Shown here one piece after another: positions 1,179 to 17,510 of a DNA stretch of 64,000 bases (position 1 is the stretch's first letter; each line of letters begins with the position of its first letter). The position numbers and the translations under genes are program-made. The notes beneath the pieces were generated by a model, which saw nothing but the letters and a program-made list of their open reading frames with translations, did no database searches and was not told the DNA's origin. This DNA comes from Glaciimonas immobilis (GTDB lineage: Bacteria; Pseudomonadota; Gammaproteobacteria; Burkholderiales; Burkholderiaceae_D). The stretch lies in the NCBI RefSeq assembly GCF_011947285.1, contig NZ_JAAOZT010000005.1:62001-126000 (forward strand), written 5' to 3'.

Positions 1179-1291
1179 ATACATTTCCTTAATAAATCAG
1201 AGGCTGTTGAGCCGACGTAAATTTTTTGTTACCGTCACAAGGTCCCTAAGCTGCTGGACGATGATTCGGCAATAAACATTCCAGATATGGC

Positions 1292-1966
1292 TTAATGCAA
1301 TTTTTGCTCAATCGCGGCTGCGGGAGCGTAACCACTAATGCGCGTTCCATCATCAAAGATAAGGACTGGCGTTCCCCGAATATCAAAGCTGCGTCCGAGG
1401 TCCAGCAACTCTTGTAGTCGGGATGAGCAAAGTGGATTCCTGGCCGGAGATTTACCTTGCAGCATCCAGTCGCCCCACGCTGCGGATGGATCCGGTGCGC
1501 AAAGAACATCGCTCGCTTTATCACGTGAAGATGCTGATAAAAAAGGAAAAATAAAAGTATGAACGGTCAAATTTTTGATCTTGGCAAGCTCAGCCTCGAC
1601 GCGCTTGCAATAGCTACAGTTGGGATCGGAAAAAACTGCAATTTGACGCTTGCCGGTGCCCTGAATGCGTGTAACCGATTTCTCCATCGGTAGACGGTTC
1701 CAGAGGTTTTTATCTGCGCTTTTGACATCATTTAGTGCCACGGTCTGACGAGAAAAAGCGCCGCGAATATTTTTAAATAATTGGTAGTGCTCTGCAGCTG
1801 GTGCCGGTTCACCGCTATCGTATTGGCTATCTGTCAACGAAGCAAAAGTACCCAAACGCTGCGCATCATCTGGCTGCAAACCGGCGGCAATATTCGATGC
1901 CATTGCGAGGGGGGCAGATACCAGAAGAGAAAACGCTACGGCGGTCATGATGATATTTTTATGCAT
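1292..1966 (-). CDS. DsbC/DsbG-like periplasmic thiol:disulfide interchange protein
   Basis: 224 residues with a signal peptide (hydrophobic stretch ending PLAMAS). The second half is a thioredoxin fold with the active site FSDPNCSYCKR (CxxC) and the cis-proline element RGTPVLIF. Two further cysteines lie in the helical insertion (VLCAPDP and NPLCSS). The arrangement fits the DsbC/DsbG isomerase family, but the N-terminal dimerisation region is shorter or divergent. In the family the protein reshuffles or reduces disulfides in exported proteins. It precedes gspG by about 110 bp in the same direction, which suggests that it services components or substrates of this secretion locus. The ATG at 1966 is preceded by GGAG. 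Confidence 0.8.
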   Translation of the reverse strand: MHKNIIMTAVAFSLLVSAPLAMASNIAAGLQPDDAQRLGTFASLTDSQYDSGEPAPAAEHYQLFKNIRGAFSRQTVALNDVKSADKNLWNRLPMEKSVTRIQGTGKRQIAVFSDPNCSYCKRVEAELAKIKNLTVHTFIFPFLSASSRDKASDVLCAPDPSAAWGDWMLQGKSPARNPLCSSRLQELLDLGRSFDIRGTPVLIFDDGTRISGYAPAAAIEQKLH

Positions 1967-2034
1967 GGTGGAAGGCTCCTGATGAGATGAGCAACTTTCT
2001 GAACTGGCTGATACGCCGGATCTCTTGGCTCGAA

Positions 2035-2373
2035 TTAAATGGATAACGAAGTTTCACAGGGAAAGTGATTCTGGGAAATGGGATTTATCCCAAAGTACGC
2101 ATCAATTTGGGATGCCATGCACGCCCGTTCAGCCCTATTTTTTTTAAAACGTGAGTCGCACCATTTCGTTAGCCGCTGGTGCGCCTGCAGCGCAATAGGC
2201 GTTGTTGGATCAATCAATAAAGTGATAACAGGAAGGCTTCTACCCGAATGGCGCGCAGCCTCATCGATAGTAAATCTGCGACCAGCCTGGACTGCAGTGT
2301 TCCGTACATGCCCGTCAAGCATTCGATCATCGGCATTGCTCCGTGGCCCCGCGCTCCTCATCAATGGCTTCAA
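2035..2373 (-). CDS. Unrecognised 112-residue reading frame, possibly the remnant of an exported protein
   Basis: The frame opens with TTG at 2373 and ends 68 bp upstream of the DsbC-like gene. I do not recognise the product. Its middle (RSLPVITLLIDPTTPIALQA) could be a folded beta-strand segment, and three cysteines follow. The open frame continues upstream without a stop to about 2530 and encodes a hydrophobic stretch (PVILVAFILPQAHG) that looks like a signal peptide, but no ATG or GTG precedes it. This suggests either an unusual start codon or a gene whose 5' end has been damaged. Its position and direction fit membership of the secretion locus. A chance open frame cannot be excluded. Confidence 0.35.
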   Translation of the reverse strand: MKPLMRSAGPRSNADDRMLDGHVRNTAVQAGRRFTIDEAARHSGRSLPVITLLIDPTTPIALQAHQRLTKWCDSRFKKNRAERACMASQIDAYFGINPISQNHFPCETSLSI

Positions 2374-2601
2374 TTCATCGCTGGGGTTCGGCTGAGGTGA
2401 GCAATCTATCTCAATAATCCCATGCGCTTGAGGAAGAATAAAAGCGACGAGTATGACGGGGCTCCCGGCGACGCTTGCATCAGCGACCGAGAAAATTTGT
2501 TCGATAATTTTGACAATCCAATTGTTTCACCGAGTCTTCAAAATAATTTTCTCGTACAAAAATATGCAAGAGGATAGTAAATATCGGAACAAAAAACAAT
2601 G

Positions 2602-2651
2602 AGAATTATCTAAATTTTCCTAAGAATATTCTGTACTTACAAGACTATTCT
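2602..2651. promoter_or_regulatory. Cluster of three AGA-N4-TCT decamers upstream of the TonB receptor gene
   Basis: Three decamers of the form AGANNNNTCT occur here: AGAATTATCT at 2602-2611, AGAATATTCT at 2623-2632 and AGACTATTCT at 2642-2651. The first two are exactly 21 bp apart. The middle one, in the context TAAGAATATTCTGTA, closely resembles the box bound by RcsB-type response regulators. The same decamer precedes both RcsB-like regulator genes in this window. The surrounding 2400-3260 region is AT-rich and has no convincing gene. A Fur-type reading of the first site is possible, but it would not explain the copies elsewhere. Confidence 0.5.
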
Positions 2652-2770
2652 TAGACCGCCATAGGAGAAAAAATAAGACGCTATAAAAAACCCCATAAAT
2701 GCCTTATAAAAAAATAAAAATGTGCACACTTTCTATAAAAAAAAATTATAAATCCTATCGGACTGGCTCT

Positions 2771-2874
2771 AGATATAGCTAATTGAGACTACAGACAAAT
2801 CTGTAGAAAAACCAGATACCAAGAATTATCTGTAGTGAATATAGATTTATCTCTGTGATTTATAGGATTTATCT
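2771..2874. promoter_or_regulatory. Second cluster of AGA-N4-TCT decamers upstream of the TonB receptor gene
   Basis: Exact decamers lie at 2793-2802 (AGACAAATCT), 2822-2831 (AGAATTATCT) and 2843-2852 (AGATTTATCT). The last two are 21 bp apart and share the intervening sequence GTAGTGAATAT. Near matches occur at 2771-2780 and 2865-2874. The pair at 2822-2852 is almost identical to the pair at 13320-13350 upstream of the second regulator gene, where the linker is GTAGTGAAAAT. This conservation across 10.5 kb points to a common operator rather than chance. Distance to the likely TonB start (3268) is about 400 bp, so either the transcript has a long leader or the sites act from a distance. Confidence 0.5.
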
Positions 2875-3267
2875 AGTTACATTGAGCGCAGTAACTAGTC
2901 AGAATGTGTCTCATCATTCGAATCGAATTTACTAAAAATTCGTACTCATCAAGCGTCATAGATGTGTGCCGATCTCGCGTATCAGGACGTACCATAATTT
3001 ACGTTCCGCCACGTAAGCAAAGCGTGAATCCCATGATAAAGCGGAATAATATTTGAAACAGCATTGCAGTATCCAGAGCCTTTGGCGTGAGACGCTGGAA
3101 TCGATGAAACGCCGTGACTATAATTTTCTTATTATTTTTGTCACCTTATTTTTGGCCTCGACACTTTTAAATCCTGACCAACTGTGAATACCGATGTGAG
3201 ACCTGAGCAGCAACATCGCTGCCGGAAAAACATGATCGCAGGTGGACTACCAACTATCCATTACACT

Positions 3268-5340
3268 ATGAAAAATCGTTTCAAACTCACTCCGTTAGCA
3301 GTTGTTCTGAGCGTTCTCTTTCTCAATAATGTTCAGGCACAAGCGATTGCTTCTACCGCGCCATCAGAACACCCGCTTATCGCGCAACAAAGCGCGCCTC
3401 TGCCAGAGGTCGTCGTGACTGCACCTCAAATGTCCGCGCCGTTGACAGTGGTCACCGATCCAAAAGCACCACGACAACCGGTTCCTGCGCATGACGGTGC
3501 CGATTACCTTAAAACAATTCCAGGTTTTTCGATAGTTCGCAAGGGCGGCACCGATGGTGATCCCGTCCTGCGCGGCATGGCCGGATCGCGTTTGAATATC
3601 GCGACCGATGGACAACAGATTTTGGGCGGCTGCGGCGGTCGCATGGACCCACCAACTGCGTACATATTCCCTGCGGAATACGACACCATCACCGTCATCA
3701 AAGGGCCGCAAACTGTACTTTACGGTCCCGGCAGTTCTGCCGGAACGGTACTTTTCGAGCGCAGCACCTTACGTGCCGCGCCCGGTCTGAAGATGAACAC
3801 GAGTATTATGGCAGGCAGCTTCGGTCGACAAGATGAGGTCGCCAGCGCACGATATAGCTTGTCCGATTTTTACGCTGAGGCTGGTGCCACGCGCTCACAT
3901 TCCGACGATTATCGCGATGGAAACGGCAACTCTGTGCACTCTTCCTACACACGCTGGAGCAGTCGCGCAGCATTCGGCTGGACTCCTGACGACAACACCT
4001 TGCTTGAGCTTTCTGTTGCGAAAAGCGACGGACACGCCGCCTACGCAGACCGTGGCATGGATGGCGCACGTTTTGCACGCTCCAATCTCGGACTGAAATT
4101 TCAAAAGCGTAACATCTCGCCAGTAGTGAAAAAAATTGAGGCTCAGATTTATCGCAATTACATCGATCACGTAATGGATAATTACAGTCTGCGTACACCG
4201 CCGCCGAAGAGCATGTTCATGGCGAGCAATCCTGATCGCACCACTGAAGGTGGGCGCGCTGCGATTACCTTGAATCTGACGGACACGACGCAACTGATCA
4301 CAGGTTTCGATATGCAAAGCAACACCCATACTTCGCGCATGGGCATGGGAATGAACGCCAGCGAAGCCTCCTATCAAAATAAGCCTCGCGTGACTAATGC
4401 ACACTTCTCAAACGTCGGCATATTTGGTGAATTGACGCAACATCTGGGCGAAAAAGAAAACAGCCGAATCATTTCAGGTCTGCGGACTGACTTTTGGCAT
4501 GCCTCTGACGAGCGTAAAGCGACTGCCATCGCTGGCAACACCACGCGTCGTAACGCTACGCTAGGCAGCGGATTCTCGCGCTATGAGTACGATCTTGCAG
4601 CGGTTCCGATGACGGTCTATGCGGGTCTGGGCGTCGCCCAACGCTTCCCCGATTATTGGGAGCTGATTTCAAAGGAAAGCGCTACCAGTAATAGCGCGTT
4701 CGGCACCAAACCAGAAAAAACCACACAACTGGATATCGGCGCGCTATATCAAGCCGGTCCCTGGAGCGTGACCGCGTCCGGCTTTTACAGCCGGGTACAA
4801 GACTTTATCCTGATTCAGTCGAATGTGAGTAAAGGTTCAAGGTCCGGCATTTCCATCGCCCGCAATGTCGCGGCGACCACCTGGGGCGGAGAAGTCGGTG
4901 CGGCTTATGCGTTAAATCAACTATGGAAACTCGACGGTTCCGTTAACTATGTACGCGGTAACAATCGCACTGACAATACGCCGTTGGCGCAAATGCCACC
5001 GCTGGAAAGCAAGTTCGGACTGACCTTCGATAATCAAACGTTTTCTCTGGCATCCATGGTTCGCTCCGTGGCAGCACAAAAACGTTTCGACCTCAACAAA
5101 GGCAATATCGCAGGACAAGATCTGGGTGCCAGTTCCGGGTTCACGATTTTCTCAGTGAATGCCGGATGGAAGCCGCGTAAAGACGTACTTGTCTCCGCCG
5201 GGATCGACAATCTGACCAACAAAACCTACGCAGAACATCTGAGCCGCCGTGGCGCAGCATTACCCGGCTATGATCAGACTTCGCGTATCAATGAGCCAGG
5301 CCGCACGTTGTGGGTTAAGGCGCAGTTTGAATTGAAGTAA
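3268..5340 (+). CDS. oprC: TonB-dependent copper receptor (OprC/NosA type)
   Basis: About 690 residues from the ATG at 3268, which opens a good signal peptide ending NNVQAQA; a GTG at 3184 gives a longer but less likely N-terminus. The plug domain begins near PEVVVTAP, a TonB-box-like segment, and contains LRGMAGSRLNIATDGQQ, then GGCGGRMDPPTAYIFP and ITVIKGPQTVLYGPG. The C-x3-M pair (Cys122, Met126) and the later His/Met run around residues 354-362 match the copper ligands known from OprC of Pseudomonas. A 22-strand barrel follows, ending in an aromatic-poor FELK. The family imports copper across the outer membrane using TonB energy. It lies upstream of a copper-dependent LPMO and downstream of the decamer clusters. 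Confidence 0.85.
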   Translation: MKNRFKLTPLAVVLSVLFLNNVQAQAIASTAPSEHPLIAQQSAPLPEVVVTAPQMSAPLTVVTDPKAPRQPVPAHDGADYLKTIPGFSIVRKGGTDGDPVLRGMAGSRLNIATDGQQILGGCGGRMDPPTAYIFPAEYDTITVIKGPQTVLYGPGSSAGTVLFERSTLRAAPGLKMNTSIMAGSFGRQDEVASARYSLSDFYAEAGATRSHSDDYRDGNGNSVHSSYTRWSSRAAFGWTPDDNTLLELSVAKSDGHAAYADRGMDGARFARSNLGLKFQKRNISPVVKKIEAQIYRNYIDHVMDNYSLRTPPPKSMFMASNPDRTTEGGRAAITLNLTDTTQLITGFDMQSNTHTSRMGMGMNASEASYQNKPRVTNAHFSNVGIFGELTQHLGEKENSRIISGLRTDFWHASDERKATAIAGNTTRRNATLGSGFSRYEYDLAAVPMTVYAGLGVAQRFPDYWELISKESATSNSAFGTKPEKTTQLDIGALYQAGPWSVTASGFYSRVQDFILIQSNVSKGSRSGISIARNVAATTWGGEVGAAYALNQLWKLDGSVNYVRGNNRTDNTPLAQMPPLESKFGLTFDNQTFSLASMVRSVAAQKRFDLNKGNIAGQDLGASSGFTIFSVNAGWKPRKDVLVSAGIDNLTNKTYAEHLSRRGAALPGYDQTSRINEPGRTLWVKAQFELK

Positions 5341-5391
5341 GGCGGATGCTTGTGTTTTTTTGATATATCAGCGGCGTAGTAAATCGCTTTC

Positions 5392-5421
5392 AAAGGTGAC
5401 GACATTGTCGTCACCTTTTTT
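5392..5421 (+). terminator. Rho-independent terminator after the TonB receptor gene
   Basis: A perfect inverted repeat with arms GGTGACGAC and GTCGTCACC, separated by ATT, is followed by a run of six T. The 5' side carries three A that can extend the stem into the T-tract, so it could work in both directions. It lies 51 bp after the receptor stop codon. Confidence 0.9.
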
Positions 5422-5447
5422 GCTTTTTTCGCTATTATTACGTGATA

Positions 5448-6239
5448 TCAGTTAGTAGCTGTATTGACTACCGCGCTACAGACCGATACTCCGCTGTTGA
5501 ACCCGACTAAGTGCATCGTAGACCTGCGCACTCTGGCGGACTGGCTCGCCCCCGGAGCCTTGCACATTTTCTGCCAATGATTACCTAGATTATCGAGGTC
5601 ATACGCGACGTTATTACCTGCACCATCAGTGGCAGCAATCAACCGATGCGCGCCGTCGTACACATAATTAATCGCATCACCGCCGGGTAGGGACTTGCGC
5701 AACAATAGCCCTGCACCGTCATATTCATAGCTAGTCACCTCCTGCGCGCCATTGGTCGTTACGGTCTTCGCGCTTAACCATCCGCGCAGCGTATAGGCCA
5801 ACAGCGTCGTCTGTCCGTTGGAAGTCTGCAATGTCCCTGCGCGACCGTTAGCGTCATAATTGGACAGCGTGGTAACGCGGCCCGCCGGACTGGTCGCCTA
5901 CGTCAGGTTACCCGCGTCATCGCAGGCATAACGCGGAACCTCGGCACGCGGACCGGTGACGGCCGACCTTTGTCCTAACGTATTATAAGTATAGGCCCAC
6001 GTTTGCGCTTTACCGACCGTGGCACCCGAGAAGTTTTGCGCGCCAGCAGCATCGGTAGTGGCCTGGTAAGCCTTGGTTATTACGTTACCGAAGTCATCGT
6101 AGGTCAGCGTAATAATACGATGTGGCTCAGCGATCCTGATCGGCTGTCTAAACACAGGATGCCATTCGGTGGTCGTCGTGCGGGCCTGCGCTGTGCCGGA
6201 TGACGCCACTAGAGCTTTCCAAAAAAATAAAAACTTCAT
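5448..6239 (-). pseudogene. RHS/YD-repeat protein fragment, inactivated
   Basis: On the minus strand the sequence encodes several typical YD repeats (ITLTYDDFGNVITKAY, TSYEYDGAGLLLRK, INYVYDGAHRLIAATD, VAYDLDNLGN), characteristic of RHS proteins. The frame is interrupted by an in-frame TAG near 5899 directly after DDAGNLT; the same frame continues on the other side with YD-type sequence. Near the 3' end the frame changes: the motif VYDAL is found in a different frame from about 5520. There is no signal peptide, no N-terminal domain and no C-terminal toxin domain. Intact RHS proteins are many hundreds of residues long and deliver toxins or act as adhesins. This is a relic that probably marks a former larger locus. 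Confidence 0.8.
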
Positions 6240-6558
6240 TCCTCCATAAGAATTATTTCAAAACGCCTTCGTCAAGAAGCGCATCACTTTCTGAAAACAC
6301 CTAAGACGTGAGTAAAACCGATGACCACGAACTCTGGGGTACATGCAGAAAATTCTTAATCTCTTAAGCGTTTTTCTGAGACAAACAGCGCGCTTGTCAG
6401 GTGTTAAGACTTCGTCTAAAACTGCACAATGATGCTCATCAACAGTAACGAAGCGGTGCCATCTTGGTGGCTGCAAAGATACTCACTGAGATTTCTGGTT
6501 CATGCAGATTGCACGAATTTTTTAATGCTTTTTCATCCATTAACAAAGGCTCTATTCA
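6240..6558. other. Intergenic region upstream of the LPMO gene
   Basis: This 319-bp stretch holds no credible gene. One decamer of the AGA-N4-TCT class is present at 6347-6356 (AGAAAATTCT), but no 21-bp partner is exact, so its membership in the decamer family is uncertain. No terminator was recognised. It should contain the LPMO promoter. Confidence 0.4.
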
Positions 6559-8085
6559 ATGTCTACTTCAGCGTCAACAAATAAATTCTTTAAACTATCG
6601 CTTGGTCTCACACTAGTACTAGGTTCGGTAGTCGCTCAACAAGCTACTGCGCATGGCTATGTCGATTCTCCAAAGAGCCGTTCGCTGGCTTGCTACGAAG
6701 GTATCAACTCCAATTGCCGCGCTCCTTACGAGCCGCAAGGCGTTGAATTCGGTGGTGGTGGCGGCGCGTTCGGCGTACTACCTCCTGGTAACGAAGCGTT
6801 TCCGGTTGGTGGCCCTAAAGATGGCGACATTGCTGCCGGTGGCCTCACAAGTAAGTACGGCAACCTGAACACGCAAACCGCGGATCGTTGGACTAAAACC
6901 AAAGTCAGCACAGGCAAAAATACATTCAGATGGCATTACACGGCAGCGCATCAAACAGCATATTGGCAATTCTTTATTACCAAGAAGGGCTGGAACCCAA
7001 ATATGCCTTTGTCACGCAGCTCGTTTGAGTCGACACCAATCGGCCAAGAAATTCATAACGGTACTAACGCGGACAGCAAGCTCGGCGGCATGAAATCAAC
7101 GCATACCCTTAATATTCCTGCTGATCGTAGCGGATACAACGTTATTTTGGCGACATGGAAAACTTCCGATACTTCTGCAGCGTTTTATCAAGTCATTGAC
7201 GTAGATGTTCAAAACGGTGTAATTGCTGTTCCTTCGAAATGGTCAAAAATTGGTTCGATCCAACCAAGCCAGACAGATCTGAAAGCTGACTCAGTCGTTA
7301 CTGCGCGCGTTATGGTGGGTGGTGCAGAAGATGTTTCCAAGCAAACTGTATTGACTATCCAAAGCGATGAAGATGGTAAAAGTTCGCAATGGCCGCATAA
7401 GTTGGCCACTAAAATCAACGCTGAAGACTTCGGTTACAAGGCCGGCCTGTTGAACAAAAATGATGAAGTTAAGCCAGCCTACGGCCTTAACAATGCGTAC
7501 GTTCAAAAAGACAGTAAAGTGTCTGGTCTGATCATCGACATTCAACGCGCATCGCCTGCATTCTCGATGGATATTACTGGTCTGAATTCGACCTATAAAA
7601 TCCAGGACGGCAAAGTAACGCTACATTTTAACGTTAACGCGATTGGTGATTCTAGCCATGTGCAAAATATCGTTTATAACGCACAACGCGAAGAAGTTGC
7701 CCGTGGCGAAGCCGATGTTAACGACGGTACAGAGCATTTTTCTATTGACGTGAATAAAGCAGTTGCCGGCAATTATGATCTGGTTACTGTTGCTAAAGCT
7801 AAATCGGGCAAAGTCATTCAGAAAACTTCGAGCTTTAAGATGATGGGCGAAGATATCTCGATTCCTGATGATCCGATTGATGTCGTACCACCAGTGAACG
7901 ACAAGTATGATTTCACCTATCCTAACGGTATTGATTCGTACACTTTCGGAACACGTGTACTGCAACCGAAGGATGGCAGTATCTACCAATGTAAGCCACT
8001 GCCGCACGGCTTCTGGTGCAAACAGGGTGCATATGCACCGGGCGGCATCTATTCAAGCGAAGCATGGACCAAGGTCAGCAACTAA
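6559..8085 (+). CDS. gbpA: Secreted GlcNAc/chitin-active lytic polysaccharide monooxygenase (GbpA-like, AA10)
   Basis: 508 residues. The signal peptide ends ...QQATA, so the mature protein begins HGYVDSPKSR. His32 would be the N-terminal copper ligand and His131 (in TAAHQTAYW) the second arm of the histidine brace. The AA10 domain runs to about residue 215. It is followed by two GbpA-type middle domains (about 230-330 and 335-435), an Asp/Pro-rich linker and a C-terminal chitin-binding module of the CBM5/12 or CBM73 kind (FTYPNGIDSY to SEAWTKVS). The family oxidatively cleaves chitin, and GbpA also mediates attachment to chitinous surfaces. Activity needs copper and an electron donor. The gene is monocistronic, with a strong terminator after it. 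Confidence 0.92.
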   Translation: MSTSASTNKFFKLSLGLTLVLGSVVAQQATAHGYVDSPKSRSLACYEGINSNCRAPYEPQGVEFGGGGGAFGVLPPGNEAFPVGGPKDGDIAAGGLTSKYGNLNTQTADRWTKTKVSTGKNTFRWHYTAAHQTAYWQFFITKKGWNPNMPLSRSSFESTPIGQEIHNGTNADSKLGGMKSTHTLNIPADRSGYNVILATWKTSDTSAAFYQVIDVDVQNGVIAVPSKWSKIGSIQPSQTDLKADSVVTARVMVGGAEDVSKQTVLTIQSDEDGKSSQWPHKLATKINAEDFGYKAGLLNKNDEVKPAYGLNNAYVQKDSKVSGLIIDIQRASPAFSMDITGLNSTYKIQDGKVTLHFNVNAIGDSSHVQNIVYNAQREEVARGEADVNDGTEHFSIDVNKAVAGNYDLVTVAKAKSGKVIQKTSSFKMMGEDISIPDDPIDVVPPVNDKYDFTYPNGIDSYTFGTRVLQPKDGSIYQCKPLPHGFWCKQGAYAPGGIYSSEAWTKVSN

Positions 8086-8160
8086 ATAGTTGATCATCGT
8101 TTTCTTTCAACTCAGCTGGCGTCAGATTTTGCAGTATTGACGTCAGACCGACTTGCGCCA

Positions 8161-8188
8161 AAACACCTCGATTCGAGGTGTTTTTTTT
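8161..8188 (+). terminator. Rho-independent terminator after the LPMO gene
   Basis: An inverted repeat with arms AACACCTCGA and TCGAGGTGTT leads directly into a run of T. It lies about 75 bp after the LPMO stop codon and separates it from the regulator operon. Confidence 0.88.
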
Positions 8189-8249
8189 CGCCCGAAACAA
8201 GTAGAAATTTTTTCGTCTTAGCACAGCAACGCGGCTATTCATCTTTTTG

Positions 8250-8290
8250 GGATATATCCCATTCTAAACATTGGCGGTTAAGAATATTCT
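8250..8290. promoter_or_regulatory. RcsB-box-like site and a GGGATATATCCC palindrome upstream of the first response regulator
   Basis: The sequence TTAAGAATATTCTGTA contains the decamer AGAATATTCT at 8281-8290, identical to the copy at 2623-2632 upstream of the TonB receptor, with the same flanks (TAAG and GTA). It lies about 110 bp before the regulator start at 8402. A perfect 12-bp palindrome GGGATATATCCC sits just upstream at 8250-8261; its role is unknown. Autoregulation by the RcsB-like product is a reasonable inference. Confidence 0.45.
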
Positions 8291-8401
8291 GTATATCAAC
8301 CGGCCAGGACCCGTCCTTCTCGTTACGTAACTATTGTTTTTGATAGCGGCGTCACATTCGACGAAGATGTTCTGGCGACAATCTGAATGAATGGAGATTA
8401 T

Positions 8402-9082
8402 ATGCCGTTGAATATTATTATCGTTGAAGATTCCACTTTGGTCCGCAAGGGCATGGTTTCAATGGTCAGCAATATGTCACTACAAAACGTAACGCATCCG
8501 ATGTCTGCGGACGAAAAAATGCCTTATCGCGTCGTCGCAGATGTGGCTTCGTCCAAAGATTTGCTGATAGCGCTAAAGGAACATAACCCCGATATGCTGA
8601 TACTGGATTACTCGTTGCAATCCGACGGGGAGGAGACCCATCCGCTACATACGCTCGATGGACAAAATCTGATCCGACATATCCGCAAGACATACAGCAC
8701 AAACATGCTGGTTGTATCACTGCACCATTCTCCCGTGATCATTCGCGCGGCGTTGGAAGCAGGGGCAAACGGTTACATAAGTAAAAATGCCAATGAAGAA
8801 GTATTAAGTCAGGCAATCCAGGCGGTAATGAAAGGCGACACATTTGTCGAGCATAACTTACTAAAAAATATGCTCAACCGCAGTCCGGAAAGCGCAGTCA
8901 TCAGTCCAAAAGAAATAGAAGTATTGCGCTTGATAGGAAAAGGCAGTCGTCTGACCGATATCGCGCAACGCATGAGCCTCAGCATTAAAACTGTCAGCGC
9001 ACACAAGCTGCGTGCAATGGAGAAATTACGTATCCGTAACGACTCTGAACTGTACCGCGTAATTACCGGAATGGCGCTTTGA
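8402..9082 (+). CDS. RcsB-like response regulator (REC + LuxR-type HTH)
   Basis: About 226 residues from the ATG at 8402, which has GGAG six bases upstream; an ATG at 8387 is also possible. The receiver domain shows IIIVEDS, the phosphorylation site LILDYSL, and the Lys in GYISKNA. The DNA-binding domain (about residue 165 on) reads SPKEIEVLRLIGKG...IAQRMSLSIKTVSAHK, then AMEKLRIRND, which follows RcsB closely (SPKE, SIKT, AM.KL, ND). The protein should be activated by phosphotransfer from a hybrid kinase; two such kinases lie downstream. A cytochrome b561 gene follows after 81 bp in the same direction and may be co-transcribed. The promoter carries an RcsB-box-like decamer. Confidence 0.88.
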   Translation: MPLNIIIVEDSTLVRKGMVSMVSNMSLQNVTHPMSADEKMPYRVVADVASSKDLLIALKEHNPDMLILDYSLQSDGEETHPLHTLDGQNLIRHIRKTYSTNMLVVSLHHSPVIIRAALEAGANGYISKNANEEVLSQAIQAVMKGDTFVEHNLLKNMLNRSPESAVISPKEIEVLRLIGKGSRLTDIAQRMSLSIKTVSAHKLRAMEKLRIRNDSELYRVITGMAL

Positions 9083-9163
9083 CGACAAACATTTCTTACA
9101 GTCATTGCCGATCTCATGACCTGTCCCACACCAATCACAAATACATTAATTTATAAGGTTTTT

Positions 9164-9712
9164 ATGACTACTATAACTCCCGATATCGCCACCCTGCTAA
9201 AGCAGCCGACCCGCTACGACCTCCTTACGCGAGGCCTGCATTGGTTCGCCGCGGGCATTATCAGCTATACGATGATCGCCGGTTACTCACTCCAATTTTT
9301 GATAGACACGCCTTACTTCCATTTTTTCTCAGTCCTGAATATGTCGCTTGGCACCTTGGTAATTCCAGTTACCATCGCGCGCTATTTATGGAAATTCTTT
9401 CGACCGTCGGTCCCTTACCCGGCAGATCTCTCACGCCCTAAAAAAAACCTGGCACATTTTGCACATGAAATGTTCTACCTCGTAATTTTTATCATGTTGA
9501 TCAGTGGCGTCTTGATGCTGACCCACGGATTCACATTTTTCTGGTTAATCGATATTCCACATCCGCTGGATAACCCTGAAGTCAATGCATTCTTTTTTGA
9601 AGTACATCGTATAGCCTGTGCCGCTGTGGCCCTGACGCTCGGCTTGCATGTTGCAGCGGTAGTGAAGCATCAGATTATAGATAAGCGGAATATTCTTGGA
9701 CGCATGCTCTGA
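9164..9712 (+). CDS. Cytochrome b561-family membrane protein
   Basis: About 182 residues from the ATG at 9164, which follows AAGG. It has four predicted membrane helices with heme-ligand histidines in the right places: GLHWFAAG in helix 1, AHEMFYLV in helix 3, and HRIA and LHVAAVVKH in helix 4. The family passes electrons across or within the inner membrane, typically from quinol or to small acceptors. It is placed between an RcsB-like regulator and a convergent hybrid kinase. A link to signalling (redox sensing) or to electron supply for the secreted LPMO is only inferred from proximity. Confidence 0.82.
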   Translation: MTTITPDIATLLKQPTRYDLLTRGLHWFAAGIISYTMIAGYSLQFLIDTPYFHFFSVLNMSLGTLVIPVTIARYLWKFFRPSVPYPADLSRPKKNLAHFAHEMFYLVIFIMLISGVLMLTHGFTFFWLIDIPHPLDNPEVNAFFFEVHRIACAAVALTLGLHVAAVVKHQIIDKRNILGRML

Positions 9713-9736
9713 GCGAATACGCAATCTCATCAGGCA

Positions 9737-12700
9737 TTAGTCGTCGTCCGGATCAATATCCAATCGAATCTGCACCAGCATGGTCTGCAATATAGGCGCT
9801 AAACGGAATGCTTCTTCGGGCCATTCATACTCTGCGCTTTCTTCTATGGCGCGGCAGAGAGCTGTTGCGGGGCGCATATCCAGTGCCGCCATACCGCCGT
9901 GAATGCGATGCGCGACCTCACCCAGATAGGTGAGGTCTGCCCGGGTAATAGCAGCCACCAGAAGAGCAATGTCTTCTGAAATGCCTGCCACAGCGGCACG
10001 TAACATTCCTGGCTGCCACATTTGCGATGCGATTGCAGAGGCTTCTGCAATCGCTTTTTCTCGATCAGGCGCATCATCCTGAAACTGATTGCCAGAAATG
10101 GTATCGCGCAAGATACCTGGCGCTTCTATGCGTGATCCAATGTGCCGGTCGAGCAGCTTTTCCAAGTCCTCCATCGTGAACGGTTTAATCATATAACCAT
10201 TCATACCAGCCGCCAAACCGCGCTCCCGCTCACCCGTTAATGCGCTCGCCGTCACCGCCACGATGGGGCAGGTCACGGCACGAGCACGCAACGCCAATGA
10301 TAATTCATAGCCATTCATCAAGGGCATGTGCAGGTCGCTCAAAATCAAATCAAATTGCAGTCCATCCTTGATCAGTTGCAGGGCTTGAGCAGCGCTGCCA
10401 GCGGCTGTAATTTCGCATCCCAGATAGCCCAATTGTTTTTCGAGCAGCAGTCGGTTAATAGCCTGATCATCCACGATCAGAACATGCGCGTTGATTGCGC
10501 GGCGATTTCCTTGTAGTGCATCCTGAGCCGGTTCTGCAATATAAATTTTGCGACCGGCGACCATCAGGATCGCATCGACAATACCCGGCCCTGACAAAGG
10601 ATTGGCGTAGCCTATGTCGTGCTTAAGAAAGGCGCTATAGGACGAGGACAGGTCGAGAAATACGCTGCCGTCACCGGCGGTAAACGGTTGCCTCTCCGTC
10701 GCAAACGGGATCGAAGACTCCGTCAGGTTAATGTCTATTCTTGCGTAATGCCCCGCTCTGTCAGATACATCGTCGCCAGTCGCGATCACCCTGCCGCCCT
10801 TAGAGGCTAACAACACGCTCAGGTGGGCTGCAAACTCCGCATCGCCCTTATCAATGTTGATCACAAACTTCAAACCACGCAGCGTATCGTCCATAACTGC
10901 CACTATTTTTGATGAGATAAGAGGGATGCTTACCACGAAAGTGGTCCCTGTTCCAGGTATCGAGTCAACGCTAATCACCCCGCCCATGGCGGCGACATAT
11001 TTTTTGCAGATAAAAAGGCCGAGACCGGTACCAGGGAATTGCTGACGGGTCGCGACACCGCTAGCTTGTCCAAATGGTTGAAAAATCCGCTCCATGTCTT
11101 CTTCAAGTATTCCCGGACCGGTGTCACGGATCGAAAGAGCGATCCGTAGTGCGCCATGGTCTGATTTATCTGTTGCGCTGGCGGAGTCTCTTTCACCCCC
11201 TGCGGCGATGTCGGATGATAGCAGTATGCCTGTCACTACCACTTTTCCTGAAGGAGTAAATTTGACCGCATTATTGATAAGGTTATTTAAAACCTGGATT
11301 AATTTAAGCGCATCACCGTACCATATGCCGTTCAGGGCCGGGTCCATCAGGCACACTAACTCTAGATTTTTTAATAGTGCACGTGACCAAAATCCCTGCA
11401 CTACCGATTCTACTTCTTTGGTTAAATCGAACGGATGGCTGTCGATCTCAACAGCTTCGGTCTCACCCTTCGTAAAGTCGAGCGCATCATTCAGTATATC
11501 CTTCAGCGTACGCGCGGAACCGTCCATAGTGTGAGATAACTGGCGCTGGCCTGCATCCAGTCGGGTTTTCGCCATGAGTTCAATTGACGCCAGCATACCG
11601 TATAAAGGCGTTCGGATCTCGTGGCTGATGGTGGCCAGGAACAGACTTTTGGAAGCACTTGTCGATTCGGCAAAGCGTTTGGCCTCCGCCAGCGCCTGCT
11701 CTGTGCGTTTGTGGTCGGTCATATCGCTGAGCACGCAAATCAATACGGACTCGCCGTCATGCATCGCAGAGGCAATCCCGATTTGGTAAAAATGGCCGCT
11801 CTCAATATCTTCCACATGCAGCACGTCCTGAGGACTTTGCTGCGTATGCAGTAACAGCAAAGACCATGCTTTCGCAGAAAGGACCTGCTCCGGGGTATCG
11901 ATCAGTCGCCAGCGTTCCAGAGGGATAAATTGTGCATTCTGTATGATCACGCCGCAGTCACTGGCGCGCAAAACGGCAAGCCCGACCGGCGACGTCTCAA
12001 CCACGGTGCGATTGAAATTTTCGCTATCCGCTAAGCGCTTTTGCTGCCGCGCTGCCGGCCCGATCACAGCAAGATTGATTTGGCGCGTGCCTAATAAAAC
12101 ACTTAGCACGGCTAGAAGGTAAATCAATATGCCCGCACCGATCGGCACAGTCTTATCCTGCAATAACGTCCACAACCTGACCGCGTACACCACACGCCAC
12201 TCAATGTTCGGGACCGCATAGCTGACTTGCAGCATCGCGTCTCGGGGCCGAAACTGTAGAGAACTTCGGTGATATTTGTATTCCTGTTCAGAGTCCAGAT
12301 TGCGGTAAAAAGTTACCTCCTCGGCGGTCGGCACACGACCGTCGATTAACATTAATCGGCCGGTATAAGCATAAATCAGCACTAGCCCGGCCCTTTGGTA
12401 GAAGGCATTGCCGGTAATCCGTGTTCTGGCTAATACGGTGTCCGGCGACATATCGGTCGCAACGTAACCAATGACAACACCAGCACGATTACGAAACGGA
12501 ATGAAGCAAGTGAACACAGTACGCCCGGTAAAGGGATCAGTCATCGCCTTGGTCCAATACACGCCATCGGCATTTTGAGCATCGGGATAGTCACGCAAAA
12601 TCCGTTCGAATTCATGACGCTTCTGCGCCGAGAACGCAGCATTTCTGTGTGCGTCCGGTTGAGGGACTGCCAAATCGGGTGATTGCTGGGTAAACACGAT

Positions 12701-13210
12701 CAGCGAGCCATCAGCATTCGACAGAATCGACTGATCGCTTCTGGCTCGATAGCCCCAGAACCCTTTTTGAAAGTCAGCCAGGCGACGCCCAAGCCCCAAC
12801 CATTCTTGTTGCAGCTTTTCCTGCGCGCCAGCGGCAACCGCCAGGTCCCCCACCGCAGGGCCGTTACGAAGGACCCAGAATTCTTCATTGAGCTGGGCGG
12901 CCTCCCCTGCAGACGGCAGCAAAACATGTTTGTCCTGCGTTTCTTTACAACGCGATGCCATCGCACAAATATAATCAGGCGCTAACTCCGCAAATCGCCC
13001 AATAAAATATTCCTGTCGGGTTATCTGCCGCAGCAAATCGGCATAATTCTCATGCGCCCATTCACTGCGATCCCATAACATAAATAGCAGAAGAAAACCA
13101 ATATATAGTGCAAGCAATAAAGTTAGTAAAGCAACAATTAAGTAAGTTCGCGCATGCAGAAAGCGGCGCGAAATCGTCGTTATACCTTCTGCTACATCCG
13201 AATGGCTCAT
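9737..13210 (-). CDS. Tripartite hybrid sensor histidine kinase (HisKA-HATPase-REC-HPt), RcsC/BvgS-like
   Basis: About 1,157 residues from the ATG at 13210 (AAGGA at good spacing; ATG 13216 and TTG 13237 are alternatives). Order: transmembrane helix about 25-45, a periplasmic sensor of roughly 300 residues, a second helix near 350, a PAS-like region, HisKA with His530 in TISHEIRTPLYG, HATPase with LNNLINNAVKFTPSG and GTGLGLFI, a divergent alpha/beta segment resembling in position the ABL domain of RcsC, a receiver with Asp959 (LILSDLHMPL), and an HPt domain with His1101 (AHRIHGG). This allows a full His-Asp-His-Asp relay ending on a separate regulator. It is divergent from the second regulator/kinase operon and shares its decamer-bearing promoter region. 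Confidence 0.9.
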   Translation of the reverse strand: MSHSDVAEGITTISRRFLHARTYLIVALLTLLLALYIGFLLLFMLWDRSEWAHENYADLLRQITRQEYFIGRFAELAPDYICAMASRCKETQDKHVLLPSAGEAAQLNEEFWVLRNGPAVGDLAVAAGAQEKLQQEWLGLGRRLADFQKGFWGYRARSDQSILSNADGSLIVFTQQSPDLAVPQPDAHRNAAFSAQKRHEFERILRDYPDAQNADGVYWTKAMTDPFTGRTVFTCFIPFRNRAGVVIGYVATDMSPDTVLARTRITGNAFYQRAGLVLIYAYTGRLMLIDGRVPTAEEVTFYRNLDSEQEYKYHRSSLQFRPRDAMLQVSYAVPNIEWRVVYAVRLWTLLQDKTVPIGAGILIYLLAVLSVLLGTRQINLAVIGPAARQQKRLADSENFNRTVVETSPVGLAVLRASDCGVIIQNAQFIPLERWRLIDTPEQVLSAKAWSLLLLHTQQSPQDVLHVEDIESGHFYQIGIASAMHDGESVLICVLSDMTDHKRTEQALAEAKRFAESTSASKSLFLATISHEIRTPLYGMLASIELMAKTRLDAGQRQLSHTMDGSARTLKDILNDALDFTKGETEAVEIDSHPFDLTKEVESVVQGFWSRALLKNLELVCLMDPALNGIWYGDALKLIQVLNNLINNAVKFTPSGKVVVTGILLSSDIAAGGERDSASATDKSDHGALRIALSIRDTGPGILEEDMERIFQPFGQASGVATRQQFPGTGLGLFICKKYVAAMGGVISVDSIPGTGTTFVVSIPLISSKIVAVMDDTLRGLKFVINIDKGDAEFAAHLSVLLASKGGRVIATGDDVSDRAGHYARIDINLTESSIPFATERQPFTAGDGSVFLDLSSSYSAFLKHDIGYANPLSGPGIVDAILMVAGRKIYIAEPAQDALQGNRRAINAHVLIVDDQAINRLLLEKQLGYLGCEITAAGSAAQALQLIKDGLQFDLILSDLHMPLMNGYELSLALRARAVTCPIVAVTASALTGERERGLAAGMNGYMIKPFTMEDLEKLLDRHIGSRIEAPGILRDTISGNQFQDDAPDREKAIAEASAIASQMWQPGMLRAAVAGISEDIALLVAAITRADLTYLGEVAHRIHGGMAALDMRPATALCRAIEESAEYEWPEEAFRLAPILQTMLVQIRLDIDPDDD

Positions 13211-13298
13211 AGACATCCTTACCTCACTTTTACACAAGGCGTACTCTCACCCCCATTGTTGGGAGCATAACATTACCCGCAGGAAAATCTCTAAACTA

Positions 13299-13384
13299 AG
13301 AATTCTCTTAACCATTTACAGATAAGTCTGTAGTGAAAATAGATTTGTCTTAGTTCATTTACGATTTTTAACTGAGATAATTCT
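13299..13384. promoter_or_regulatory. Four AGA-N4-TCT decamers, three spaced exactly 21 bp, between divergent kinase and regulator genes
   Basis: Decamers lie at 13299-13308 (AGAATTCTCT), 13320-13329 (AGATAAGTCT), 13341-13350 (AGATTTGTCT) and 13375-13384 (AGATAATTCT). The first three start exactly 21 bp apart, two turns of DNA, so proteins bound there would lie on one face of the helix. The linker GTAGTGAAAAT between the second and third is nearly the same as at 2832-2842 upstream of the TonB receptor. The position between the divergent hybrid kinase and the regulator at 13468 suggests control of both, most simply by one or both RcsB-like regulators encoded here. Confidence 0.6.
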
Positions 13385-13467: not shown

Positions 13468-14184
13468 ATGGCAGAAACCGAACAGCAATTAGAAAACCCG
13501 CTTTTAAGTCAAATGTGCGACATTATTGTTGCGGACGATCACCCTATTCTTTTGCATGGAATTGAAAAAATATTAGCAACTACTAAGAGTCTGAGAATCG
13601 TCGCGACCGCGCAAACGGTCACCGAGATATTCCGGGTGCTTGATTTATATCCATGCGAAATTCTGATTTGCGACTACTCCTTCTATGGTGATGATCTGCC
13701 AGACGGTTTGCCGATGATCAAAAGAATCCGGACTCTCTATCCCCATATCAAAATAATTATTCTTTCAGCGCGCGACGATCTGGGCACCGCCCGCAATACG
13801 CTTGAATGTGGCGTCTACGGATTTGTGCGTAAAAATAGCGATATGCGCAACGTGATTAATGCTGTGCAAGAGGTCAGGTCGGGCAATAAATTTACTGACA
13901 CCGCTACCACCCAGGACATGTTAAAAAATCTTCTCTCGCTGGGCAGAAATGAGCGCTCGCCTTCCGAGGGACGCGTCTCGTTTACGCCTAAAGAAATCGA
14001 AACTATTCGTTTGCTGCAGCGCGGCCTGACGTTGACGGAAATCGCCGAATTAACCAATCGCAGCGTCAAGACCGTGAGTGCACATAAACAATTGCTGATG
14101 AAAAAACTCGGCACCAGAAGCAATCTTGAATTTTTTCATACGCTGAGTAACGAGCAATTGATGGCTGCTATCACTGCACAATGA
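13468..14184 (+). CDS. Second RcsB-like response regulator (REC + LuxR-type HTH)
   Basis: 238 residues from the ATG at 13468, which follows AAGGAGAG; an in-frame upstream start at 13387 would add an implausible 27-residue leader. The receiver shows IIVADDHP, the phospho-acceptor ILICDYSF and FVRKNSD. The LuxR-type domain reads TPKEIETIRLLQRG...TEIAELTNRSVKTVSAHK, then MKKLG, again closest in pattern to RcsB. It is a diverged paralogue of the regulator at 8402. Its stop overlaps the start of the following hybrid kinase by 4 bp, so the pair is one operon. Four decamers of the shared operator family lie just upstream. Confidence 0.9.
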   Translation: MAETEQQLENPLLSQMCDIIVADDHPILLHGIEKILATTKSLRIVATAQTVTEIFRVLDLYPCEILICDYSFYGDDLPDGLPMIKRIRTLYPHIKIIILSARDDLGTARNTLECGVYGFVRKNSDMRNVINAVQEVRSGNKFTDTATTQDMLKNLLSLGRNERSPSEGRVSFTPKEIETIRLLQRGLTLTEIAELTNRSVKTVSAHKQLLMKKLGTRSNLEFFHTLSNEQLMAAITAQ

Positions 14185-17100
14185 TCAGACCGGGCGCGAA
14201 CAAACCTTTCTCCACGCTGTACACACCACTGCATCGCTCTAACGGCAACAGCCCGGTCCAGCTTTTAGGCCGATACCATCGATGGATTATCTATGGCGGT
14301 GCCACGTTAGTGACGGTAGCTGTACTTCTGGCCGCTGTGATCGCCATGGCCTTGTATGCCGAAAATTTCATTCATGCGCAACGCCTGTTATTTGACGCAG
14401 AACAACGCCAGGTAGAAATCAAAGTACTTTCTGCCAATTCCAAGATGCGCCAGACCATCGTCCGCCAGCAATTCCTGCGCGTGCACCGCGGAACAGATAT
14501 GGCACCGCAATCGACCACAACGCTGGCTGCGCGACATCCCCGCACCCACAGGCACGATACAGTCGGACATAAAAACCTTGAAAAGTCGATTGAGAACGCA
14601 ACCGTCAATGCGTCGGTCAACGCTGCAATAAACGCCATCAATGACCCCGATACTATTTCTACTGAGTCTTATGTGACCACGATCCTGGACGCCACGAGTC
14701 GCCCATCAGCATTAGAAGCCTTGTTGACGCAATTTTATGATGTCGTCCCCAGCGCCGTGATGAATACCTCGCCCGCGGAACAAGGAACTACCATCATGCT
14801 CTATGATAAAAATCTGACATTTCTGGGTATGCATATGCCGCAGGCTGAAAAGCCCCATTTGCTCCAGAAAAAAAATCGGGCGGCAACGCGCGCTGCCATC
14901 GCTAAGGCAGTTGCGCCAATCGAACACGCGTTACAATCTATACCGCTGGAACAATTACGCGCTGGCAAAACGGTGTGGCTGGCACCCTATGTGGACGCCC
15001 TGACCGACACCTTAATGTTAAGTCGCGCCGCCGTGGTTTTTCACGGCAAACAGCCTTTCTCGGTTCTGGTTATCAGCGTCCCTGCAGAGCAGTTCAGCCA
15101 ACATTTTCTATCACAGCCGCTTTCACACGGTTTTGCCGTAATTACCGCCGCTGGTCGGGTACTGTCAGGCAAGCTGATTAATCATATTTCGACTGCTGCG
15201 GTGCTACACCACCAAGATCGGGAGGAAACCTCAAAAACCTATACCAGTTCCCTTAATAGCTTATTTTCCGGCGACGCCACGTTGATTGCATTAAGCCATC
15301 CAATCGGCGCAACCGGATGGACGATGGTGTATACATTTGACTGGGCCATGTTATGGGAGGCTTTGCACAGCGAAATCCTTTTTGCGATGGCGGTCGCATT
15401 GACGCTCTGTACAATCCTGTGGACGATTGTCATATTATTCAATCGCCTGATATTTATTCCGGTCATGCGGGAGGCGCTACGTGTCCACGATAGCGAAGCG
15501 TTTTCGCGGGCGATGATGGGCGTTGCACCACTCGGATTTTTTGTATTGAGCTATCCGACCGGCGCACTTATGCTTGACAATGAGCAAGCCCGTGCAGTCG
15601 GCAATCAGGATTACAACTCGCCTGATCTGGCATCGTTTCACCAAAGACTTATGGCATGTTATAAAAATCTGGGAGCAGCCATCGAGGCCGATCAGACGCT
15701 CGCCCACGCTGTGCTGGAGTTGTGCGGTGAAGACGGCGATTACACCTATGCGCTGGCCGCGTTTACCCGTACGCGATATTTGCACAATGATGTATTGTTA
15801 TGCTGCCTAAGCGATATCACAGTTCAAAAACGCGCTGAACGCACGCTTGTACAGGCAAAAACAGACGCAGATGAGGCGAACAAAGCAAAATCGATGTTTC
15901 TTGCGTTAATCAGTCATGAGATACGCACGCCTTTGCACGGGGCTGCAGGCCATCTTGAGCTGTTGGAGATGGCTACTTTACCGGACGCCGAACATGAACT
16001 GGTACAGACCATCCGCGGGTCGTTTGACTCACTTTTGAGAATCATCAATGACATACTCGACATATCGAGAATAGAGGCCGGACAGTTAGCGCTGAATAAC
16101 GCACCGTTCAATTTGCATGAAGTCGTGACTTGCTGCACGCATTTATGGACCCCGGCGCTTGACGCCAAGTCTGTTGCCTTTATTTGCCGCACGGCGCCAA
16201 ACGTTCCCACCTATTTGCTTGGCGACGCTGGTCGAATCAAGCAGATATTAAATAACTTACTATCAAATGCGGTTAAATTCACCCATCAGGGCAGCATCGT
16301 TCTGGATATTTCAGGAAGCCCAAAAAATGGCGGATATGTACTCCAGATCGGCATACGCGATTCTGGAATCGGTATTTCCCAGCACGATCAAAAACGCTTA
16401 TTCACCCCGTTTAGCCAAGCTAACGCCAGCATCGCGGGTGAGTTCGGCGGCACTGGGCTGGGATTGTCCCTATGCAAACAACTTATTGATGCCATGCACG
16501 GCAGAATTAATATCGAAAGCACCTATGGATCTGGCACCATCGTGATGGTCACGCTTTTGCTTTGTCATACAGAGACGGATCGGATTACGCCTGCGATCAA
16601 ACGCGCAATTCGAGATACGTCACCAACCAAAGCCCGCCCACTAACCGATCTGATTAGTAACGTATCCCCAGTCTCAGCGCCGTTCCAGCAATTGCATTCT
16701 CTTACCGACTGGCTGGCTGCCGCCAACCGCTTACGGGTGCTGGTCGTCGAAGACGATCTGGTCAGCAGTAAACTAATGGAAAAACAATTATTGGCACTAG
16801 GATGCATCCATGTCGATTTCGTCAATAACGGGATGGAGGCGCTGGAACGTGCCACTTCGCGCCAAGGCGACTTCGCCTATGATCTGATATTGACCGATAT
16901 GAGCCTGCCCCAAATGAGTGGCCAAGAATTGGTGTTATCGCTACGCCAGATCGGGTTATCGACCCCTATTATCGTCATCTCGGCTAGCGTGTCGAATAGC
17001 CAGACCACGGCGATTCTACCTGAGATTGATGCTTTTCTAATCAAGCCGGTTTCCTTAAACAAACTCAAGGCGGCGTTGGCCCCCTATGTGTTGGCCGCAA

Positions 17101-17510
17101 CAACGCACGACCAAAAACTTATGCCGGCTCTTTATCTATCACCTGATGCAGCAGCCGAATCCACCTTCGATACAACCGGTGCGAGGCGCTGGCCCGTTGT
17201 AGATGCCGACATTGCTATTATTTTTTTAGATACTTACCGCGACGATTTACGCTCACTATTGCAAGCGTACCAGGTCGAAGATGTGGCAATTCTGAGCGCA
17301 CGGCTGCATCGCCTCAAAGGCGCGCTATTAGTCATACAAGAAGATGCTCTCGCGCAACACGTCGAGCGATTATGCCATGCCATTTTTAGCAACGGATGCA
17401 ATCCGAACCGAGAAGATTTACGCCTGTTCGTTAAAGGGTTGCTTTTCGTGGTTCGCCATTTGCGGGTAGCTTTACTGGCCGATCCTGGGGTGACCAAACC
17501 TATAACCTGA
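14181..17510 (+). CDS. Second tripartite hybrid sensor histidine kinase (HisKA-HATPase-REC-HPt)
   Basis: 1,109 residues, start overlapping the regulator stop by 4 bp. Order: a transmembrane helix at about 36-57, a large periplasmic region to about 400, a second helix (FAMAVALTLCTILWTIVIL), a PAS-like segment, HisKA with His579 (LISHEIRTPLHG), HATPase with LNNLLSNAVKFTHQG and GTGLGLSL, a receiver with Asp906 (LILTDMSLPQ) and a C-terminal HPt with His1043 (LHRLKGAL). All phosphorelay residues are present. The periplasmic part includes an Asn/Ala-rich stretch (residues about 135-155). Being fused by overlap to the regulator at 13468, it is the natural partner of that protein; cross-talk with the other pair is likely given the shared operators. 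Confidence 0.9.
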   Translation: MIRPGANKPFSTLYTPLHRSNGNSPVQLLGRYHRWIIYGGATLVTVAVLLAAVIAMALYAENFIHAQRLLFDAEQRQVEIKVLSANSKMRQTIVRQQFLRVHRGTDMAPQSTTTLAARHPRTHRHDTVGHKNLEKSIENATVNASVNAAINAINDPDTISTESYVTTILDATSRPSALEALLTQFYDVVPSAVMNTSPAEQGTTIMLYDKNLTFLGMHMPQAEKPHLLQKKNRAATRAAIAKAVAPIEHALQSIPLEQLRAGKTVWLAPYVDALTDTLMLSRAAVVFHGKQPFSVLVISVPAEQFSQHFLSQPLSHGFAVITAAGRVLSGKLINHISTAAVLHHQDREETSKTYTSSLNSLFSGDATLIALSHPIGATGWTMVYTFDWAMLWEALHSEILFAMAVALTLCTILWTIVILFNRLIFIPVMREALRVHDSEAFSRAMMGVAPLGFFVLSYPTGALMLDNEQARAVGNQDYNSPDLASFHQRLMACYKNLGAAIEADQTLAHAVLELCGEDGDYTYALAAFTRTRYLHNDVLLCCLSDITVQKRAERTLVQAKTDADEANKAKSMFLALISHEIRTPLHGAAGHLELLEMATLPDAEHELVQTIRGSFDSLLRIINDILDISRIEAGQLALNNAPFNLHEVVTCCTHLWTPALDAKSVAFICRTAPNVPTYLLGDAGRIKQILNNLLSNAVKFTHQGSIVLDISGSPKNGGYVLQIGIRDSGIGISQHDQKRLFTPFSQANASIAGEFGGTGLGLSLCKQLIDAMHGRINIESTYGSGTIVMVTLLLCHTETDRITPAIKRAIRDTSPTKARPLTDLISNVSPVSAPFQQLHSLTDWLAAANRLRVLVVEDDLVSSKLMEKQLLALGCIHVDFVNNGMEALERATSRQGDFAYDLILTDMSLPQMSGQELVLSLRQIGLSTPIIVISASVSNSQTTAILPEIDAFLIKPVSLNKLKAALAPYVLAATTHDQKLMPALYLSPDAAAESTFDTTGARRWPVVDADIAIIFLDTYRDDLRSLLQAYQVEDVAILSARLHRLKGALLVIQEDALAQHVERLCHAIFSNGCNPNREDLRLFVKGLLFVVRHLRVALLADPGVTKPIT

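Follow-up and report, generated by a model that had tools for sequence, protein, structure and literature searches.

Phased AGA-N4-TCT operator arrays upstream of surface and secretion genes in Glaciimonas, and the RcsB/BvgA-class regulators that probably read them

The locus considered here, a window of 64,000 nucleotides from Glaciimonas immobilis, carries a gene for an OprC-type TonB-dependent copper receptor (3184..5340, forward strand; TIGR01778, 743 bits against a cutoff of 472), a gene for a GbpA-like chitin-binding LPMO (6559..8085, forward strand; PF03067, PF18416 and PF21868, with the NCBIfam GbpA model at 450.7 bits, below its cutoff of 481), and genes for two RcsB-like response regulators, RR1 (8402..9082) and RR2 (13468..14184), both on the forward strand. 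Two hybrid histidine kinases, each with HisKA, HATPase, REC and Hpt domains, are encoded next to RR2, one divergently (9737..13237, reverse strand) and the other directly 3' of it (14181..17510, forward strand). The decamer AGA-N4-TCT recurs in the upstream regions of this locus, and the question is what reads it and for how large a set of genes. A sequence-only reading of the window had proposed a local regulon, in which decamers at regular helical phase are bound by the two regulators encoded beside them.

The window holds 16 such decamers, against a mean of 7.28 (sd 3.00) in shuffled sequence, and none of 100 shuffles reached 16. The eleven listed in the sequence-only reading are all in place, starting at 2602, 2623, 2642, 2793, 2822 and 2843, at 8281, and at 13299, 13320, 13341 and 13375; it had claimed five exact 21-bp cases, and we count four (2602/2623, 2822/2843, 13299/13320 and 13320/13341). 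The linkers it regarded as conserved, GTAGTGAATAT and GTAGTGAAAAT, are present, as are two copies of TAAGAATATTCTGTA. Its inventory was incomplete: it lacked the decamer at 6347..6356, ahead of the LPMO gene, and GGATTTATCT at 2865, a decamer with one mismatch that starts 22 bp after the one at 2843. Upstream of oprC there is thus a distal array (2602..2651; decamers at 2602, 2623 and 2642, steps of 21 and 19 bp) and a proximal one (2822..2874; decamers at 2822 and 2843 and the one-mismatch site at 2865, steps of 21 and 22 bp), while the decamer at 2793..2802, 29 bp before the proximal array and out of phase, is a weak candidate. A lone decamer (8281..8290), lying within TAAGAATATTCT, precedes RR1, and an array with two 21-bp steps (13299..13350; decamers at 13299, 13320 and 13341) occupies the space between RR2 and the divergent kinase gene. 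The start codon of oprC is uncertain, congener matches beginning at residue 16 or 17.

The 4.91-Mb G. immobilis genome (G000) contains 23 pairs of decamers 21 bp apart (an 11-bp gap), against none for the reversed pattern (the decamer or pair read backwards, which served as the control throughout) and 0.08 expected from independent placement of single decamers. When all pairs with starts 10 to 40 bp apart are counted, there are 38 against 2 in the control, and 35 of the 38 lie at 19 to 22 bp: 21 bp occurs 23 times, 22 and 19 bp five times each, 20 bp twice, and 14, 29 and 34 bp once each. Since steps of 19 to 22 bp all occur, the phase amounts to two helical turns with some tolerance. With up to one mismatch allowed, the 21-bp pairs number 35, of which 23 are exact and 12 are added, and the control has 5; the exact pairs thus carry most of the signal. 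Single decamers were rejected as a predictor of the regulon, being only weakly enriched (617 against 481 for the reversed control). Twenty-two of the 23 pairs lie outside ORFs of at least 150 aa, though 76% of the fetched sequence falls within such ORFs; the remaining pair, L006:5909, is inside a 579-aa ORF and was excluded from the promoter analysis. All 18 pairs found in congeners also lie outside ORFs of this length, which cover 71% of the stretches fetched there. The phased pairs are therefore not as common in long ORFs or for the reversed pattern, a comparison by which the sequence-only reading had asked to be judged, and its shared operator with same-face phasing gains support; its regulon, on the other hand, is not local, the pairs being spread over the genome and recurring in three of four congeners.

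The arrays of G000 stand upstream of about 18 gene groups, mostly concerned with surface and secretion. Their neighbours include the copper receptor, RR2, a third RcsB-like response regulator (RR3; L005:4980-5675, reverse strand), a Scabin-like protein, a sodium:alanine symporter, a lasso-peptide cluster, a ShlB/FhaC-type (two-partner secretion) transporter, minor pilins, a type I-like exporter (594 bits, below its cutoff), a leucine-rich-repeat protein, a fimbrial subunit, a periplasmic sugar-binding-type protein, and proteins of 371 and 575 aa, each with an export-like N-terminus; a porin adjoins an array at 22-bp spacing. Proteins with no Pfam match are called secreted or exported by the appearance of their N-terminus, some of the targets are not surface-related, and the direction of some arrays is uncertain. 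By manual count, with homologues sought among the fetched loci, 12 of the 18 congener pairs adjoin a gene homologous to an array neighbour in G000. For G002 this gene is oprC; for G003 the genes are the type I secretion locus, minor pilins and the porin; and for G004 they are oprC, the type I secretion locus (two pairs), relatives of the 371-aa protein (two pairs), the symporter, minor pilins and a relative of the 575-aa protein. The neighbours of the six other pairs include a YadA-type adhesin (G003) and a response regulator (G002).

Two of the loci surveyed deserve a description of their own. The lasso-peptide cluster (L003, G000:C23:120000-133000; 1429-5799, reverse strand) has its phased array upstream of the precursor gene, the candidate precursor being a 54-aa product (5635-5799) with the core start GTPGG, which we take to be capistruin-like; the cluster further encodes a cyclase-like protein (matched by the NCBIfam macrolactam and lasso cyclase models, below cutoff), a Transglut_core3 protein and an ABC transporter. 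At L096, twin subtilase genes with PKD and chitin-binding-type (CBM5/12) domains (1246-3774 and 4179-6743) are each preceded by TTAAGATTTTTCTCTA, and there is a 20-bp pair upstream of the second.

The cluster in the window, in the order oprC, LPMO, RR1, cytochrome b561, kinase, RR2, kinase, is whole in G003 and G004, and its oprC, LPMO, RR1 and RR2 genes all have upstream operators. The G002 cluster comprises oprC, LPMO, RR1, RR2 and the second kinase, with the b561 gene and the first kinase missing in the fetched 20 kb; a 460-aa ORF lies between RR1 and RR2 (L068, 8450-11761), where these two are absent. The oprC homologues of G002, G003 and G004 match at 77-80%, and the sites upstream of the gene are kept to different degrees: the decamer at 2623 aligns with CTAAGAATATTCTATA in G003 and G004, the sites at 2822 and 2843 are exact 21-bp pairs in G004 and G002, with the 2822 counterpart one mismatch away in G003, and the site at 2865 is degenerate throughout the four species. 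At the same aligned place as the LPMO decamer at 6347, G003 and G004 have an exact decamer and G002 has one with a single mismatch. The upstream DNA has otherwise diverged, but all four species share TAAGAATATTCT ahead of RR1 and GATAATTCTA ahead of RR2 without change, and the RR2 array keeps its site register within about one base in G003, G004 and G002, while single sites drift in and out of the consensus.

The arrays also have a preferred distance to the core promoter. Thirty-eight arrays were aligned, 19 from G000 (L086 at 22 bp and 18 others, which between them contain 22 of the 23 21-bp pairs, the pairs at 14 and 20 bp being left out) and 19 from congeners (the 18 pairs at 21 bp and L070 at 19 bp). 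A -10-like hexamer, defined by A at position 2, T at position 6 and at least four matches to TATAAT, occurs at offset 25 after the promoter-proximal site in 13 of the 38, against 5 at the next-best offset and a mean of 1.29 arrays over the other 83 offsets; the remaining 25 arrays have no strict match at this offset. The opposite reading direction gives at most 4 arrays at any offset, and removal of two near-duplicates (L081 and the second L080 array) leaves 11 of 36. The arrays of L008, L009 and L075 may be read as plus or minus (minus by the nearest start or by the homologous target), and the count is 13 of 38 either way. Since the offset was first spotted by eye in these same arrays, a whole-genome search was added as a check, in which a decamer followed by TADAAT at 15 to 35 bp was sought in three genomes. 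The gap is 25 in 13 of the 66 places tallied (the one remaining place has a gap of 28), and outside the known arrays it is 25 in 7 places against 2.65 per other gap (p 0.02), a weaker result than that of the array test; the total of 67 places is no higher than the 66 of the reversed pattern, so the signal is in the gap only and not in the number. A TTGACA-like -35 element is not prominent in the aligned arrays. A hexamer that begins 25 bp after the operator places the -35 region directly behind the operator, the geometry reported for BvgA promoters. At the promoters of the type I-like exporter (three species) and of the porin (two species), the last operator, the spacing and the -10-like hexamer are all kept.

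At the promoters of the window this geometry is found with differing clarity. The putative -10 of oprC is CAGAAT (2900..2905, forward strand), 25 bp after the 2865 site, and its aligned place reads CAGAAT or CACACT across the four species; RR1 has one operator instead of an array, and no -10-like hexamer follows it at 25 bp. The decamer at 13375 (13375..13384, forward strand), which had been taken as the fourth site of the RR2 array, does exist but stands 34 rather than 21 bp from its neighbour at 13341, and the same 34-bp step is found in four species. It contains GATAAT (13376-13381) 25 bp after the 13341 site, which is the -10 offset of the other arrays, so that it is probably mainly the -10 box of RR2; its TCT is also conserved, and a second role is possible. 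Two further decamer pairs 34 bp apart, the distance between the last RR2 site and this decamer, were seen in G004 (L085, 3834-4093).

How the arrays are distributed bears on which regulators may read them. The genus genomes hold 23 (G000), 0 (G001), 2 (G002), 7 (G003) and 9 (G004) 21-bp pairs, and G001 is the congener that lacks close orthologues of RR1 and RR2. Over a sample of 116 genomes of the family, 41 pairs (control 1) fall in the four with close RR1/RR2 orthologues and 13 (control 11) in the other 112. At E 1e-25, RR1 has matches among these 116 only in G000, G002, G003 and G004, at 72-81% in the congeners; RR2 has matches in 23, with 82-85% identity only in G002, G003 and G004, a second copy at 65% in G002, and distant relatives (about 26-36% identical) in G001 and 18 further family genomes, which show no array excess. 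G002 has both RR1 and RR2 yet only two pairs, and the four genomes belong to one genus of close kin, so that the co-occurrence may reflect a single evolutionary event. Among 399 genomes of the order, where G000 is the sole member of its genus, none besides G000 has more than three pairs. A Herbaspirillum metagenome-assembled genome (L013), the nearest named relative found (58% to RR2), has no 21-bp pair in the 20.7 kb examined, and a near-mode search of the RR2 operon DNA against plasmids gave no match. Seven of the 13 pairs outside the regulator-bearing genomes are near-identical copies of one sequence (G015, G021, G080 and G098; genera g12 and g18).

RR1, RR2 and RR3 all combine a receiver domain with a LuxR-type GerE helix-turn-helix (PF00072 and PF00196, above cutoff), which is the domain make-up of the NarL/FixJ class. 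Searches of solved structures with RR1 and RR2 return RcsB first (7.7e-18 and 1.6e-28, respectively) and EvgA next. RcsB orthology was nevertheless rejected for both, which are RcsB-class but not RcsB, since the NCBIfam equivalog NF008098 (cutoff 235 bits) gives 115.3 bits for RR2 and 83.2 for RR1. The recognition helices of RR1 and RR2 are each identical across the four species, while those of the three regulators differ from one another outside a shared core. RcsB contacts its operator bases through two residues, K180 and S184 (PMC5829831); K180 is kept in RR1, RR2 and RR3, and in place of S184 RR1 and RR2 have A and RR3 has H. The earlier suggestion of RcsB-like helices in both local regulators is supported. 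RR3 has orthologues at 62-67% in G002, G003 and G004, against a best match of 37% in G001, as judged from five genus genomes, and exact sites lie upstream of it in G000 (a pair), G004 and G002 (single sites), G003 having no exact decamer there. Choosing one regulator by co-occurrence failed, because all three have close orthologues in the same four genomes, and the binder cannot be named in this way. The proposed link of the operator to the two local regulators thus rests on co-occurrence and on sites upstream of both, and does not stand in its original form, RR3 co-occurring as well and having exact upstream sites in three of four genomes. Further RcsB-like paralogues are present in these genomes; one additional frame of this kind (G000:C1:325596-326222) has an internal stop and is possibly a pseudogene. 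A 20-bp pair (L097, 4160-4189) lies upstream of a gene for a short receiver-only response regulator (4377-4799).

Several described systems resemble the one outlined here. The BvgAS sensor kinase is built from periplasmic binding-protein-like domains followed by HisKA-HATPase-REC-Hpt; the two kinases of the window share the latter four, and no BvgS-type periplasmic binding-protein-like sensor domain was found in either at E 0.001. BvgA of Bordetella, as described in PMC7250471, binds the Pfha and Pptx promoters as head-to-head dimers at 22-bp steps on one face of the DNA, with the promoter-proximal dimer abutting a poor -35, and prediction of its lower-affinity sites from sequence is described as problematic. 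Steps of about two turns on the same face (22 bp for BvgA; 21 bp here, and 19 to 22 bp in 35 of the 38 close pairs, a likeness of spacing in sequence) and secreted and surface factors in the regulon are common to both systems, and a promoter-proximal dimer against the -35 region may be as well; the Glaciimonas arrays differ in their 21-bp step and in being legible from sequence. As to RcsB of enterobacteria, the flhDC box has the half-sites TTAGGAA and TCTAAGA, contacted at G and A (PMC5829831), which appear compatible with an AGA/TCT core, and the resemblance of the decamer to an RcsB box, already proposed, is supported, with the base-contacting K180 retained in all three regulators. The two systems also differ, RR1 and RR2 lying far under the RcsB equivalog cutoff and the neighbouring kinases having Hpt in the same chain. 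To our knowledge, RcsB sites have not been described as 21-bp arrays across a regulon. EvgA (PDB 5f64, 8zwn), second to RcsB in the structure searches, and FimZ, whose model was matched, belong to the same regulator class, and the scores of the RRs are well below the respective cutoffs (251 for EvgA and 271 for the FimZ equivalog). In openly licensed literature no paper was found for the motif strings AGANNNNTCT, AGAN4TCT or AGA-N4-TCT, and among the papers listed the titles and abstract openings gave no description of such a regulon. The geometry agrees with BvgA promoters and the operator with RcsB boxes, and neither RR1 nor RR2 qualifies as RcsB.

We think it probable, judging from these sequence patterns, that dimers of RcsB/BvgA class on same-face operators about 21 bp apart, the last of them at the -35 region, activate a genus-wide regulon in which surface and secretion genes abound. 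The decamer would be the core sequence of an RcsB-type operator, to which a response regulator of this class (NarL/FixJ family), most likely the product of RR1, RR2 or both, binds as a dimer. Phosphorylated dimers would fill successive operators about two turns apart (most commonly 21 bp, within 19 to 22) on one face of the DNA, and the promoter-proximal dimer, abutting the -35 region with the -10 hexamer starting 25 bp after its operator, would help to recruit RNA polymerase where a good -35 is absent; cooperativity, phosphorylation dependence, activation in place of repression and the identity of the binder are what we infer here. The resulting regulon would take in oprC, the LPMO, the regulators, the type I-like exporter, minor pilins, the porin, the fimbrial subunit, the two-partner secretion transporter, the lasso-peptide cluster and others.

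It is very improbable that the arrays are chance occurrences or a mobile repeat carrying two decamers. Such a repeat does occur in other genera of the family, where, by manual count, seven of the 13 pairs outside the regulator-bearing genomes are near-identical copies of one sequence; but linkers and flanks vary among the G000 arrays, several of which are kept next to homologous genes, and a chance, repeat or coding origin was rejected on these differing flanks, the zero count of the reversed control and the location relative to ORFs. Repression, with operators that cover promoters until a signal is lost, would account for the RR2 decamer at 13375, which overlaps the putative -10 and has a TCT invariant in four species; it is an improbable account of the arrays in general, as those with the offset-25 hexamer have their operators upstream of the core promoter, the arrangement described for activated BvgA promoters (PMC7250471).

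The choice of binder is harder. RR3 or another NarL-family regulator of the genus might bind the operators, with RR1 and RR2 merely among the targets, and the close RR3 orthologues of G002, G003 and G004, the operators upstream of RR3 in three genomes and the additional RcsB-like paralogues speak for this; we hold it unlikely, since RR1 and RR2 sit in a conserved cluster in which oprC, the LPMO gene and both regulator genes all have upstream operators, and the RR3 of G003 is without an exact upstream decamer. It is also possible, if doubtful, that RR1, RR2 and RR3 act on the same operators, jointly or in competition and perhaps as heterodimers, the arrays then reading a mixture of regulators. 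All three are of RcsB class, with operators upstream of their own genes and close orthologues in the same genomes, and RcsB is known to work with partner regulators (PMC5829831); the differences between the recognition helices of the three outside the shared core speak, at the level of sequence, against such sharing. Activation by dimers of RR1 and/or RR2 remains the reading that we prefer.

For BvgA, activator arrays in tandem on one DNA face are well documented, and its weaker sites are not readily read from sequence (PMC7250471). The array of Glaciimonas can be read in this way, is kept between species and has a preferred distance to the -10, which makes the whole regulon predictable and the contribution of each dimer testable. 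A broader and more tentative idea is that several RcsB-type regulators with operators at their own genes read one 21-bp array code with a set core-promoter distance in a genus-specific global regulon, in which the number and strength of operators might set the response of genes for antagonism and surface functions (lasso peptide, chitin LPMO, adhesins, secretion systems). In any case, the arrays suggest how the surface, secretion and antimicrobial genes of the genus may be regulated.
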